DNA from: Egicoccus sp. AB-alg2
Lineage (GTDB): Bacteria; Actinomycetota; Nitriliruptoria; Nitriliruptorales; Nitriliruptoraceae
DNA: 64,000 nucleotides
Direction: 5' to 3'
Assembly (NCBI RefSeq): GCF_041821065.1
Contig: NZ_JBGUAX010000005.1
Span: 1 to 64,000 of the forward strand
Within the stretch, counting starts at the first letter, position 1. The number at the start of each line of letters is the position of its first letter. A model generated the notes under the pieces. That model saw only the letters and a list, made by a program, of their open reading frames with translations, had not been told where the DNA came from and did no database searches. Of the stretch, positions 12,488 to 19,502 are shown one piece after another. The translations under genes were made by a program, and so were the position numbers.

Positions 12488-13099
12488 TCACGGGTAGGCG
12501 TGCCGGTAGGTGAGGCTGATCCGCGGCCCGGCGTCGGCCACCTTCGGCACGGTGTGCTGCCACGTGCGCTGGCAGCTGCCGCCCATGACCAGCAGGTCGC
12601 CGTTGCCCAGCGAGAAGCCGAGGCTCGCTCCGCCGCCCCGCGGACGCAGCCGGAACGTCCGCGCGGCGCCGACGGAGACGATCGCGATGACCGCCTCGGG
12701 CAGGTCACGTGCGATGCGGTCGCCGTGCCAGGCCACCGAGTCACGACCGTCGCGGTAGAGATTCGCGCCGATGCGCTCGAAGTGGCGGCCGTAGCGGGCG
12801 TCGAGCACCCGTCCGAGCTCGGCCAGCACCTCCAGACCTGCGGGCGGCTCCGCGACCGGGATCGATGCCGTGAGTCGGGGCTGCAGGAGTTCCTGCCCGT
12901 GCAGGCGCTCGGTGCGCTGGCCCCACGGCAGCGACGCCAACGCGGTCGCGAAGACCTCGTCGGCGCCGGCCAGCCAGCCCGGCAGGTGGTCGACCCAGGC
13001 ACCGGCCGCGAGCTCGTGGCGGAGGAGGCCGGGCATGGCGGGGTCGAAGGTCGGCGATCGTCCGCCGAGGAGTGATCCCTGCCACGCGAGCTCCGTCAT
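12488..13099 (-). CDS. alkB: AlkB-like Fe(II)/2-oxoglutarate dioxygenase
   Basis: A 203-residue member of the AlkB family, which repairs N-alkylated bases such as 1-methyladenine and 3-methylcytosine by oxidative demethylation. The metal triad is visible: WHGD (His125, Asp127) and His182 in WQHTVP, followed by RISLTYR with the 2-oxoglutarate-binding arginine near 193. GANLYRDGRDSVAWHGD is the classic AlkB/ALKBH2-3 substrate-side motif, which supports DNA repair rather than peptide oxidation. It starts 42 bases after the Suc_Fer gene on the same strand and may be read through from that operon. No good Shine-Dalgarno precedes the ATG. Confidence 0.9.
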   Translation of the reverse strand: MTELAWQGSLLGGRSPTFDPAMPGLLRHELAAGAWVDHLPGWLAGADEVFATALASLPWGQRTERLHGQELLQPRLTASIPVAEPPAGLEVLAELGRVLDARYGRHFERIGANLYRDGRDSVAWHGDRIARDLPEAVIAIVSVGAARTFRLRPRGGGASLGFSLGNGDLLVMGGSCQRTWQHTVPKVADAGPRISLTYRHAYP

Positions 13100-13141: not shown

Positions 13142-14035
13142 TCACTCCTCGCGCAATTCGAGTAGTTCGTAGCGCGGCGCCACGGCGGTGGCGCCCGCGC
13201 ACGTGAGCCGTGCGGGCGTGCCGTCCCGGCGCGTGCGCACCTCGACGACCACGTCGGGGCCGGCAAGGCGGCGAAACCGCACCCGGTGGCGGTCGTCCTG
13301 ACGATCGACCGAGACGACACGCAGCGCGTCGGCGCCCTGGATGCCCAGCCGCTCGCGGACCAGTACTTCCGCGGCCTGGACGGCGAAGGGGTGGGCGGAA
13401 CGCCCGCGGAAGTGCTCGAGGGTGATCCGCCCACCCTCGTGCGCAGCCACGACGACCCGGGCGGTGTCGGCGTCCAGCTGACCGTAGAACAAGCCGTCCG
13501 GCAGGCACACCACGTTGCCGGCGAACCGGTCACCGCCGACGTGCGAGCACTCCCACACCCGCTCGCCCACCTGCTCGAGCAGCGCCTGCGCCACCGGGAG
13601 ACCGAACTTGGCGCAGCAGGGGTCGTGCTTGCCGTTGGTACACACCAGGTACAGCGGGTCGAGCACCCGCAGCCCACCAACGGTCTGTCCTTCGCGCAGG
13701 GCATCCAGGTCGAGGTCGAGCACCTGCTGGACGTGCTCGAGCGCGAACGACTCCAGCCAGCCACCGATGCCCTGGCTGGTGCCGGCGTACAACGTCCGTT
13801 CCGTGCCCAGCGGTCGCTGGCCGCCGGGGCGCCGGAGCAGCAGCACCCGGGCCGGCAGGGCTCGTGACCAGTCCAGCAGCCGGTCGCGGACGGCCGGCGG
13901 GAGGTCGGAGTCCTGGAGTGCCTCGGCGCCCCACGGTCCGGGTTGTTCCAGCAGGATCCAGCGGCGGGCGCGCGACGCGGTTCCCAGCGGAGGTTCCGCA
14001 CGTGTCCGCGAGTCCAGCGCGCACAGATCGGTCAC
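13142..14035 (-). CDS. Sucrase/ferredoxin-like (Suc_Fer, PF06999) thioredoxin-fold iron-sulfur protein
   Basis: A 297-residue protein of the Suc_Fer-like family, a thioredoxin-fold ferredoxin relative. Key segments are LVCTNGKHDPCCAKFG (Cys132, Cys140, Cys141) and WECSHVGGDRFAGNVVCLPDG (Cys163, His165, Cys177), which likely hold a [2Fe-2S] cluster with Cys and His ligands. C-terminal residues from about 215 form a small extra domain. Its GTG start overlaps the stop of the upstream cupin gene as GTGA, so the two are translationally coupled. An electron-transfer partner for the iron-dependent oxygenase upstream is the simplest reading, but that is inference. Family recognition is strong; function in this family is largely undefined. 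Confidence 0.88.
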   Translation of the reverse strand: MTDLCALDSRTRAEPPLGTASRARRWILLEQPGPWGAEALQDSDLPPAVRDRLLDWSRALPARVLLLRRPGGQRPLGTERTLYAGTSQGIGGWLESFALEHVQQVLDLDLDALREGQTVGGLRVLDPLYLVCTNGKHDPCCAKFGLPVAQALLEQVGERVWECSHVGGDRFAGNVVCLPDGLFYGQLDADTARVVVAAHEGGRITLEHFRGRSAHPFAVQAAEVLVRERLGIQGADALRVVSVDRQDDRHRVRFRRLAGPDVVVEVRTRRDGTPARLTCAGATAVAPRYELLELREE

Positions 14036-15195
14036 GCCGGCTCGCCACCGGTCCCCCGGTCGACGGTCAGCAGTCCCTCACGCAGCAGCCGGCGGCAGAG
14101 CACCAGGCGGCTGTTCGGATCCAGGTGCGCATCGAGGTCCGCCGGCCGGAAGCGGCCGTCCTGCAGCACCTGTTCGAGGGCCGGCCGCAGCGGCGCCGGC
14201 AGACGGAGCCGTCGATCGGGCAGCACGAGTTCGACGACCTCCCCGGCGTCCACCAGGCGGGCGCCGAGGTACGGCCGCACCCGGAGCGGGGTCGCGTCGT
14301 CGAGGTGGTCCAGTGCGAGCAGGTCGCGCAGGCCACCGCTGCGGTCGGGCACCCGCGCCGACCAGAAGGACGCCGCGGACGCCTCGAGGGCCGCGTCGAC
14401 GTCGGCGCCGCGCAGCGCGATCGCGAGCCGGTCGAGGTGCTCGGCCAACTGCTCGCGGTGGACGAGCGGGTCGCCGGCCCAGCCGCCGGGCAGGGTCTGG
14501 TCGAGGTCGGCGCTGGCGAGGGCCGTGTCGACGGCGCGCCGGACGAGCGACGACCATCGCACCGTGCGCACCCCGATCGTGAGGTGGAGCGACGGCTGCT
14601 CGAGGGTCTGGGCGGCGTGGCGGGTGCCGGCCGGCAGGTACAGCACGTCTCCGGGCTTGAGCTCGAGGTCCCAGGGCTCCGACTGGCCGGGCGGGTGCAC
14701 GACCCACCGCTTGACACCGTGGGTCTGCACGGCGAAGACGTCGTGCGGGTCCTCGTGCAGGTGCAGCCCCTGTGCGACTGGCGGCGTCAGGTAGGCGTTG
14801 GCCTGCACGGGATGGGTCAGTTCCGCCTCCAGGGCGCGGCACAGCTCCGCGACCGGCGGCCAGGAGCGGTGCAGACCCTGCAGCACGATGCTGGCGCCGT
14901 CGTCGAACGCGGCGTGCACGGCCGCGACGTCGATCAGGTCGTCGACCTGGCGAGAGCCGATTCGGACCCGGCGGGTGACCTGCCCCGCGGGCAGCGTCAC
15001 GCCGTCCTCGACCAGCCGGAACGCCGGCGCGCGGAGCCCCGAGCCGGCCACCAGGTCGTCGACGTGCGCAAGCGAAAGGACGTCGTCGTAGGCGTCGGGA
15101 GCGCTGGCCGGGACGTGCAACGGGGCCTTCCCGAACGTGGTGTCCAGGAAGGCCCTCGCGTCCCCGACCAGTCGTGTCAGGGACGAGGTCGGCAT
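14032..15195 (-). CDS. JmjC/cupin-4 family Fe(II)/2OG oxygenase
   Basis: A 387-residue cupin-type oxygenase of the PF08007 group, related to ribosomal oxygenases such as YcfD that hydroxylate protein side chains. The metal site is GLHLHEDPHDVFAVQ (His147, Asp149), with the distal histidine in LPAGTRHAAQ (His193); KRWVVHPPG and LKPGDVLYLP frame the barrel. The C-terminal half (about 210-387) is a helical and winged-helix-like region as in YcfD relatives. Its ATG lies one base after the stop of the Asp-rich repeat peptide gene, and its stop overlaps the Suc_Fer gene. The tight spacing suggests the peptide is its substrate. Known activity of the family: hydroxylation of Arg, His or Asp/Asn in proteins. 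Confidence 0.88.
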   Translation of the reverse strand: MPTSSLTRLVGDARAFLDTTFGKAPLHVPASAPDAYDDVLSLAHVDDLVAGSGLRAPAFRLVEDGVTLPAGQVTRRVRIGSRQVDDLIDVAAVHAAFDDGASIVLQGLHRSWPPVAELCRALEAELTHPVQANAYLTPPVAQGLHLHEDPHDVFAVQTHGVKRWVVHPPGQSEPWDLELKPGDVLYLPAGTRHAAQTLEQPSLHLTIGVRTVRWSSLVRRAVDTALASADLDQTLPGGWAGDPLVHREQLAEHLDRLAIALRGADVDAALEASAASFWSARVPDRSGGLRDLLALDHLDDATPLRVRPYLGARLVDAGEVVELVLPDRRLRLPAPLRPALEQVLQDGRFRPADLDAHLDPNSRLVLCRRLLREGLLTVDRGTGGEPA

Positions 15196-15196
15196 G

Positions 15197-15445
15197 TCAG
15201 GCGTCGGTGCCGTCCACGTCGGCCCCGTCGCCGTCGGCGGCGTCGGTGGCGTCCCCGTCGGCGTCCGCGCCGTCGGCATCGGTGCCGTCCGCGTCGGTGC
15301 CGTCCGCGTCGGTGCCGTCGGCGTCCGCCGCGTCGCCGTCACGCACGTCGGTCGCGTCGCCGTCCTGCACGTCGGCGGTGGTGGTCGTGGCGGTCGCGGT
15401 GCCGACCGTCTCCATGTCGGCGTCCGTCAGGCCTTCAACGCGCAT
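15197..15445 (-). CDS. Asp-rich pentapeptide-repeat small protein, candidate modified-peptide precursor
   Basis: An 82-residue protein with 25 aspartates, two arginines, no lysine and no cysteine. The N-terminus, MRVEGLTDADMETVGTA, resembles the helical leader and processing-site region of many RiPP precursors (LTDxDxExV followed by small residues). After a Thr-rich stretch it enters tandem DADGT units (three exact copies at 41-55, then DADGA, DADGD) and ends in DGTDA. The ATG is preceded by GGAGGACGAGC, an excellent ribosome site, and the TGA is one base from the oxygenase ATG, so it is a real coupled gene rather than a shadow. DxDG units could also bind calcium. No family is recognised. A precursor role is inference. 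Confidence 0.7.
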   Translation of the reverse strand: MRVEGLTDADMETVGTATATTTTADVQDGDATDVRDGDAADADGTDADGTDADGTDADGADADGDATDAADGDGADVDGTDA

Positions 15446-15583: not shown

Positions 15584-15871
15584 TCAGCTGCCGTTGCCGT
15601 CGCCCGGGCGCCAGCTCAACATGGCGTCGGTGAGCCGGCCGTTGCGTGCGGTGAGGAACTGGCGGCGGGCACGCGCATCCGCCCCGGCGGGGAGCAGACG
15701 GAGTTCGGCCACGTTGGCAGACACCTGCCGCTCGGCTTCCACCGCGCAGGCCCGCGAGCAGACCGTGCCCGCGGGCGCCTCGTCCCCGCACACCACGCAC
15801 CCCGTGAGCTCGAGGGCGTCGAGGTCCGCCTCGGTGGGCGGTGGGGTGGCGGGTGGTGGTGGGAGCAGCAT
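15584..15871 (-). CDS. Small zinc-finger protein with Cys4 motif, unknown
   Basis: A 95-residue protein. After a Pro-rich start (MLLPPPPATPPP) comes a treble-clef-like knuckle, CVVCGDEAPAGTVCSRAC (Cys25, Cys28, Cys38, Cys42), then a helical region with LPAGADARARRQFLTARNGRLTDAM. The Cys4 pattern should bind zinc. The ATG at 15871 has GAGG at a good distance; the frame remains open upstream without resemblance to anything. It is transcribed toward the repeat-peptide operon (138-base gap) and divergently from the F420-type enzyme at 16018. I do not recognise a family. Confidence 0.6.
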   Translation of the reverse strand: MLLPPPPATPPPTEADLDALELTGCVVCGDEAPAGTVCSRACAVEAERQVSANVAELRLLPAGADARARRQFLTARNGRLTDAMLSWRPGDGNGS

Positions 15872-16017
15872 GGCGGCCTCGATGTCGCGCTTCGACGTCG
15901 CCAGGTCCCCGTGGTCTCGACACCCGACCAGAAGACCGTACCGCCGAAGTGGACACCGCGCAATGACCGTGATAGGCGGTTGCGAGGCGCACCATCCCGC
16001 CCCGAACGAGGTCGCCA

Positions 16018-17369: not shown

Positions 17370-17514
17370 CGACGGATCGTCCCTTTCGCCCGGCCGGCCC
17401 GACCAGGTGGCGTAGGCGCGCGCTGGCGTCGCACGTCGCCGAGCCAGCGGCAACGTTCGGCCACATACCTGCGTCGTCGGCGTCATCGTGGACGTCGAGG
17501 ACGAAGGACGGGGA

Positions 17515-18822
17515 ATGGTCGCAACGGGGGGCCGGCGCCTGCCGTGCGTCGGGATGCTCCGACGCACCGCCGCGACGGTGACACTGGTCGTCACGCTCAC
17601 GGCCGGCTGGGCGCTGCCGACGCCGCCCGCGCACGCGGCCGTCACACCGTGCTCGCGCGGGACGGTCGCGCTGACGTTCGACGACGGACCGCACGCGCGC
17701 TCCACGCCGCGGGTGCTGGACGTGCTCGCGGGCCGCCGCGTCAAGGCGACCTTCTTCCAGGTCGGTTCGATGGTGGCGGCCAACCCCGCCGTCGCTCGGC
17801 GGGTGCACGCCGACGGGCACGTGCTGGCCAACCACACCTATCGGCACGAGAACCTGACCCGGCTGGGCAATGCCGACATCCGGCGCACGATCGACCGGAC
17901 CAACCGCGCCATCGTCGGTATCGGCGCGCCGAAGCCGACCCTCGTCCGACCACCCTACGGCGCCACCTCGACCCGCGTCCGTGACGTGATCAGCGGCATG
18001 GGCATGCGACAGCTGCTGTGGGACGTCGACCCGCAGGACTGGCGTTCCGGACGTTCGGCCGCCACGATCCGGGACCTCGTGCTGCGAGGTCTGCGCGACG
18101 GCGCCGTCGTGTTGTTGCACGACGCGTCCGCGAACGTCGACCGCAGCATCGCCGCTCTGCCGGCCATCATCGACGGCGCCCGCAGCCGGGGGTACTGCCT
18201 CGGCACGCTCGACCAGGCGGGCCGGGTGGTGCCGCCGGTCCCGGCCGCGCGGATCGATGACGTCGAGGTGACCGAGGGAGCGGCCGGCACGAAACGTTCC
18301 GCCGTGCTGACGGTGCGACTGTCGGAGCCGACGAGCCGCGCGGTCAGCATCGACTGGACCACGGTCGACGGCAGCGCCGTCGCCGGTGAGGACTACAAGG
18401 CGGCGAGCGGCACCCTGACGATCCCGCGGGGCGCGACCCGCGGCACCATCAAGGTGACCGTCCGTGGCGACGACCTCGACGAACCGAACGAACGCTTCAC
18501 CATCCGGCTGCGCTCGCCCGCCGGCGTGACGCTCGCCCGCGCCAAGGCCCGCGTCACCATCCTCGACGATGATCCGCCCGCGGCCAGCACGAAGGCCGAC
18601 GCCTCCGCCGAGCGCGACGCCGGCGAGGGGGCCGCCGACACCGCCCAGACGCCTGACGCCCCGGCCGACGCCGACGTACCGACCGGCGCGCCGACGGAGG
18701 ACGGCGACGCCGCGACCGGGGCCACCGCCGAGGAGGACGTGCAGGAGGCGGACGACGACAGCGGAGCTCCGACCGGACCGGCGACCGAGGCGAGTGACGC
18801 CGGCACGGGCGGCGACCCGTAG
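17515..18822 (+). CDS. Secreted polysaccharide deacetylase (NodB) fused to a Calx-beta domain
   Basis: A 435-residue exported enzyme. After a signal peptide ending near AHA (residue 41) comes a NodB deacetylase domain (about 47-235) with every motif: TFDDGPH (Asp56, Asp57), NHTYRHENL (His107, His111), RPPYGA, WDVDPQDW and VVLLHDA. It should remove acetyl groups from peptidoglycan or another wall glycan. Residues about 245-352 form a Calx-beta domain (VSIDWTTVDGSAVAGEDYKAASGTLTI split by loops, closing VTILDDDPP) that probably binds calcium. The last 80 residues are an acidic Ala/Asp/Thr-rich disordered tail. ATG at 17515 chosen for the AAGGACGGGG upstream; a GTG at 17488 is possible. Confidence 0.88.
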   Translation: MVATGGRRLPCVGMLRRTAATVTLVVTLTAGWALPTPPAHAAVTPCSRGTVALTFDDGPHARSTPRVLDVLAGRRVKATFFQVGSMVAANPAVARRVHADGHVLANHTYRHENLTRLGNADIRRTIDRTNRAIVGIGAPKPTLVRPPYGATSTRVRDVISGMGMRQLLWDVDPQDWRSGRSAATIRDLVLRGLRDGAVVLLHDASANVDRSIAALPAIIDGARSRGYCLGTLDQAGRVVPPVPAARIDDVEVTEGAAGTKRSAVLTVRLSEPTSRAVSIDWTTVDGSAVAGEDYKAASGTLTIPRGATRGTIKVTVRGDDLDEPNERFTIRLRSPAGVTLARAKARVTILDDDPPAASTKADASAERDAGEGAADTAQTPDAPADADVPTGAPTEDGDAATGATAEEDVQEADDDSGAPTGPATEASDAGTGGDP

Positions 18823-19425: not shown

Positions 19426-19502
19426 TGGAGCGGATGACGAGATTCGAACTCGCGACCTCCACCTTGGCAAGGTGGCGCTCTAGCCAACTGAGCTACATCC
19501 GC
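19426..19502 (-). tRNA. tRNA-Gly (anticodon GCC)
   Basis: Reading the minus strand, GCGGATG at the 5' end pairs with CATCCGC at the 3' end. The D-arm GCTCAGTTGGCTAGAGC, an anticodon arm CCACC-TTGCCAA-GGTGG with anticodon GCC, and a T-arm with GTTCGAATC are all standard. Discriminator U is followed by an encoded CCA (19428-19426). The mature part without CCA is 74 nucleotides. A terminator follows at 19413-19394. Confidence 0.97.

Follow-up and report, generated by a model that had tools for sequence, protein, structure and literature searches.

The window is the whole stretch of DNA analysed, 64,000 nucleotides from Egicoccus sp. AB-alg2. Three genes follow one another on its minus strand: an Asp-rich, precursor-like peptide of 82 aa (15197-15445), a JmjC_2/cupin 2OG-Fe(II) oxygenase of 387 aa (14033-15195 including the stop codon) and a Suc_Fer/thioredoxin-like ferredoxin protein of 297 aa with a GTG start (13142-14035). 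The peptide gene has an ATG start with GGAGG ahead of it and encodes 25 Asp, no Lys and no Cys. Its stop codon meets the oxygenase ATG at a 1-base junction, oxygenase and Suc_Fer genes overlap by GTGA, and the three genes are one tight operon. The coordinates, junctions, GGAGG site, length and residue counts given in the initial annotation were all exact on base-level recheck. Its calls for the two enzymes were borne out by Pfam (PF08007, JmjC_2, 3e-20; PF06999, 3e-19) and, for Suc_Fer, by the modelled fold.

An AlkB-type 2OG-Fe(II) oxygenase (PF13532) is encoded 42 bases downstream of the trio (12488-13099, minus strand). The gene after the trio in three loci of the same genus (L021-L023) falls in one common cluster and is absent from the other displayed loci. 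Upstream of the peptide lies a small ORF with a CxxC..C, zinc-ribbon-like pattern and no Pfam match (15588-15875, minus strand). A polysaccharide deacetylase that combines a Calx-beta domain with a long acidic tail (17488-18822, plus strand) and the sole tRNA within the window, a tRNA-Gly (gcc) (19426-19502, minus strand), are also encoded.

Occurrence of the three-gene cassette

The oxygenase was present in 36 of 61 near relatives. At the level of the phylum, its profile matched 57 of 396 genomes, spread over 39 of 236 genera. GTDB contigs, when scanned, yielded 369 oxygenase relatives, the best 80 of which were from Nitriliruptoria, Egibacteraceae and Euzebyales plus some 60 Nocardioidaceae. 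Relatives below ~215 bits (L055, L165-L172) fell outside the cassette.

Oriented loci numbered 128, with upstream sequence in 125 (three contigs counted twice). Of these 125 loci, 123 had a peptide gene as the immediate upstream neighbour of the oxygenase; a small gene for a precursor next to that of a tailoring enzyme is the arrangement expected of a RiPP. This count includes one locus although it is interrupted by masked N (L039), and one whose peptide is a different ORF from that picked in the peptide compilation (L157). As a similar peptide precedes the orthologous oxygenase so regularly, the peptide is not a chance ORF. Both peptide-less loci (L160, L161) are also without Suc_Fer; an oxygenase-Suc_Fer pair lacking the peptide, named beforehand as the case that would speak against the cassette, was found nowhere among the loci. 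In the relatives survey, peptide matches adjoined the oxygenase except for two in genomes without an oxygenase match, one running to the contig end (G027) and one weak (G021).

The only conserved neighbourhood was the trio itself, kept from Nitriliruptoria to Nocardioides; conservation in distant actinobacteria had been set as a test in the initial annotation. No protease, exporter/transporter or further enzyme was conserved across the loci, which was counted against a RiPP reading. Genes for leader removal and export are common in RiPP loci, not strictly required, and housekeeping proteases could remove the leader. With peptide, oxygenase and Suc_Fer alone conserved, the cassette has neither the ATP-grasp ligase of graspetides nor the MNIO (DUF692) enzyme of MNIO RiPPs and methanobactin-like metallophores. 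Iron, zinc or Fur-type boxes upstream were in no excess over shuffles, a further point against the favoured RiPP reading. A large ATPase-LuxR (LAL-type) regulator is encoded upstream of the peptide in ~30 loci, from Nocardioides (L110:1888-4863, L087, L117, L121, L128, L129 and others), and is not general; ~12 of these loci also encode a second Suc_Fer with the canonical HX3H.

Leader and core of the peptide

The peptide of the window carries the leader motif LTDADMET (15407-15430, minus strand). The family leader is L-x-D-[DE]-[DE]-[IM]-x-T, with column counts over 110 peptides of 97 for L, 106 for D, 105 for I/M and 101 for T; in the window's genus it takes the form L-T-D/E-A-D-[IM]-E-T, where Ala takes the fourth place. 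The general leader pattern with a short ORF turned up 93 times in the 1.43 Mb of sequence fetched, all of them adjacent to the oxygenase. Chance in GC-rich DNA was rejected as a source of such peptides: elsewhere in the 1.43 Mb, both strands, there were 23 Asp-rich 40-residue windows, all without the leader. No Pfam or NCBIfam family was found for the window peptide or for the other peptides tried, among which one gave a weak daptide match (E 0.009) below that model's cut-off.

The core follows at 15200-15373 (minus strand), with tandem DADGT and DGDAT units in which Asp is spaced 2 or 3 apart by small residues. Three core types were distinguished: D-x(1,2)-D repeats (type 1, n = 108), EGPADGGSNPGGHDGGADGTA repeats (type 2, n = 11), with a small remainder grouped as type 3. 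Neighbouring Asp residues of type 1 cores were 2 or 3 apart in 2046 of 2137 gaps (96%). Cores contain 5-41 Asp in tandem repeats; Asp makes up ~30% of their residues, Gly/Ala/Thr/Ser serve as spacers, and hydrophobic residues are nearly absent. Peptides measure 54-155 aa in all, so that a conserved leader is combined with a variable core, as is typical of RiPPs and as the initial annotation had predicted for leader and repeat number. In the oxygenase tree, types 1 and 2 are largely confined to two well-supported parts (SH-aLRT 95 and 96, a quick support method); core types track oxygenase clades.

Selection on the peptide was assessed from 22 close, overlapping pairs, the members of each being equally long and at least 70% identical. 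Third codon positions held 466 of 767 nucleotide differences (61%), which shows that the ORF is translated and under selection at the protein level. Amino-acid changes were mostly S/T, A/G, G/S and A/S. Of 143 amino-acid changes in the core, 8 involved Asp, where codon content would predict 43%; since the pairs overlap, the p-value should be read loosely, but the difference is a large one. Asp is the only reactive side chain that all cores have in abundance. The initial annotation had left the target as Asp or Thr. Thr was dropped and Asp retained, because spacers interchange S/T/A/G freely, Asp rarely changes, and one core (L047) is made of Asp/Gly/Ala, with 19 Asp and 2 Ser+Thr. Conservation of Asp would also be expected if Asp served only to bind metal, which was counted against modification.

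Oxygenase and Suc_Fer protein

The metal-binding HxD of the oxygenase (H147, D149; 14749-14757), the third metal ligand H193 (14617-14619) and the 2OG lysine K162 (14710-14712), all on the minus strand, are invariant in 25 aligned sequences and align with the corresponding NO66 residues. All 25 members match PF08007 and have the HxD..H triad and the 2OG-binding residue; judged by these residues, the active site is intact. The monomer model (pLDDT 90.6) matched NO66 best among solved folds (Z 28.0, 4.7 A over 364 residues), followed by MINA53 and YcfD. The cassette oxygenase thus resembles the ribosomal oxygenases NO66, MINA53 and YcfD/RoxA in fold over nearly its whole length, in HxD..H with the 2OG lysine/arginine, and in a C-terminal winged-helix-type domain. 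Those enzymes act on His/Arg of ribosomal proteins, whereas the cassette oxygenase is encoded with an Asp-rich peptide and a Suc_Fer gene. To our knowledge, the PF08007 enzymes characterised so far act on ribosomal proteins, in which they hydroxylate Arg or His, and none hydroxylates Asp; this was counted against the Asp reading.

Residues 304-378 of the modelled oxygenase (14062-14286, minus strand) run from strands through three helices to a short strand. This is the element order of an RRE as defined in PMC12710340, and it is suggestive of an RRE-like, leader-binding C-terminal domain. The order was seen in the model alone, and Pfam RRE families had no match in this region. The same survey already notes PF08007 proteins with RRE-like domains, together with their fold and RiPP-like bacterial neighbourhoods; its passages found by keyword make no mention of an Asp-repeat precursor, a leader motif or a Suc_Fer partner (PMC12710340).

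The Suc_Fer model (monomer, pLDDT 94.1) had thioredoxin-like [2Fe-2S] ferredoxins as nearest solved folds. In Aim32 and Apd1 the cluster is bound by CX8CXnHX3H (PMC8482512). The cassette protein is like these ferredoxins in its fold and in having CX8C and an HX3 motif, but almost every cassette member has Asp in place of their second His ligand (PMC8482512, PMC11126956). The two putative [2Fe-2S] ligands of CX8C, C132 (13640-13642) and C141 (13613-13615), are both invariant; the other two would be provided by HX3D (H165, D169; 13529-13543, all minus strand), with Asp in 111 of 116 cassette Suc_Fer matches. HX3H is found in 13 Suc_Fer paralogues, whose genes lie immediately upstream in Nocardioides loci. 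Among nine stand-alone Suc_Fer proteins of the class, six have His and two Asp, and HX3D is therefore not exclusive to the cassette. Suc_Fer was encoded in 103 of 104 type 1 and 9 of 11 type 2 loci and in none of the 4 of type 3 (one of them a duplicate); 103/104 against 9/14 gave a Fisher p of 6e-5 with relatedness ignored. Its absence from some loci was counted against the pathway proposed below.

Distant homologues of the oxygenase in Streptomyces adjoin YcaO/TfuA genes; a plasmid of Streptomyces sp. WAC00288 (L185:1-4161) encodes YcaO, a TfuA-like protein, a homologous cupin, a methyltransferase and a carbamoyltransferase. The S. clavuligerus homologue adjoins a 48-residue peptide with two DxDxxD stretches (DNDPSD, DPDPFD). 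In two large actinobacterial genomes (L169, L171), short peptides ending in GRSDGND precede a distant JmjC/cupin homologue and are possibly another precursor family. These settings suggest that a wider branch of the oxygenase serves peptide modification. A search for plasmid copies of the cassette oxygenase gave distant homologues only (~32% identity for the best-ranked). One distant JmjC/cupin gene lies on a small mobilizable E. coli plasmid of 7.9 kb (L184:615-1508).

Proposed pathway and alternatives

The cassette is a genuine, conserved and apparently undescribed gene set, and it looks like a candidate new RiPP family. The initial annotation knew of no described pathway with this set, and none was found in the open-access literature searched. 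The reading we favour, with reasonable confidence, is a minimal RiPP-type pathway in which the oxygenase oxidises core Asp with Suc_Fer as redox partner. The peptide would be the precursor, in which a recognition motif at the N-terminus is joined to a core of variable length with Asp two or three apart. The C-terminal domain of the oxygenase would probably bind the leader, and the enzyme, with Fe(II), O2 and 2-oxoglutarate, would oxidise many core Asp, most likely by beta-hydroxylation. Within such a pathway Suc_Fer would plausibly serve as the redox partner, for example by keeping the oxygenase iron as Fe(II) over dozens of sites; an oxygenase of high turnover could well need such a donor of electrons. 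Supply of electrons or iron by Suc_Fer, or metal binding by the product, had been suggested in the initial annotation. Taken singly, these assignments differ in strength: the peptide is very probably the substrate and Asp is a likely modified site, hydroxylation is slightly favoured as the reaction, and the redox role of Suc_Fer is tentative, at somewhat under even chances.

Related chemistry is known from RiPPs. Cupin/JmjC enzymes such as PbsQ hydroxylate precursors (PMC12257519), and biphenomycin-type loci (PbsQ, BpmG) likewise encode a cupin-like 2OG hydroxylase with the precursor. There it is one of several enzymes (MNIO, arginase, B12-rSAM, protease), whereas the cassette oxygenase is apparently the main enzyme and faces a multi-site Asp core. 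Asp of a precursor peptide is beta-hydroxylated oxidatively by PesHI (PMC13060819) and by SmaO/SmaX (reported in PMC13097080). PesHI differs in being an MNIO rather than a JmjC enzyme and in modifying one Asp, compared with 5-41 core Asp here.

The best-surviving alternative, though improbable, goes beyond hydroxylation: the oxygenase would start at the Asp beta carbon and Suc_Fer would catalyse a second step, with products such as decarboxylated, cross-linked or aminomalonate-type residues. The near-constant presence of Suc_Fer with type 1 cores and its unusual HX3D ligand set agree with this, and in a graspetide cluster SmaO/SmaX convert Asp through beta-hydroxyAsp to aminomalonate, as PMC13097080 reports. 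However, Apd1 and Aim32 are described as electron-transfer/redox proteins, not catalysts (PMC11126956, PMC8482512), and some loci are without Suc_Fer. Less probable still is an acidic peptide that stays unmodified and binds metal (Ca, Fe) or mimics nucleic acid, with both enzymes acting elsewhere. DxDG-like spacing resembles Ca-binding loops, and both the Asp-rich core nearly devoid of hydrophobics and the lack of a conserved protease and exporter would suit it; but it needs neither a strict one-to-one linkage to the oxygenase, nor a common leader on unlike cores, nor a likely peptide-binding oxygenase domain. An ordinary ribosomal-protein oxygenase (ROX) operon, with the short upstream ORF for translation coupling or regulation only, is very improbable, since a coupling ORF needs no conserved protein leader, selected Asp, length of 54-129 residues or clade-specific repeats, even though the fold is that of NO66/MINA53/YcfD and the 1-base and GTGA junctions suggest translational coupling.

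A more specific form of the favoured RiPP-type pathway is speculative: a single JmjC oxygenase would make a poly-beta-hydroxyaspartyl polymer, a metal-chelating polyanion, with a Cys2-His-Asp [2Fe-2S] protein as dedicated partner, in a new RiPP family. The cassette is carried by cultured Nocardioides strains, which makes a direct test possible. If the proposed pathway is true, PF08007 oxygenases would gain a natural substrate class beyond ribosomal proteins, RiPPs would gain a family in which what appears to be one main modifying enzyme acts on tens of sites, and one branch of the Suc_Fer proteins, which are poorly understood, would have a function.
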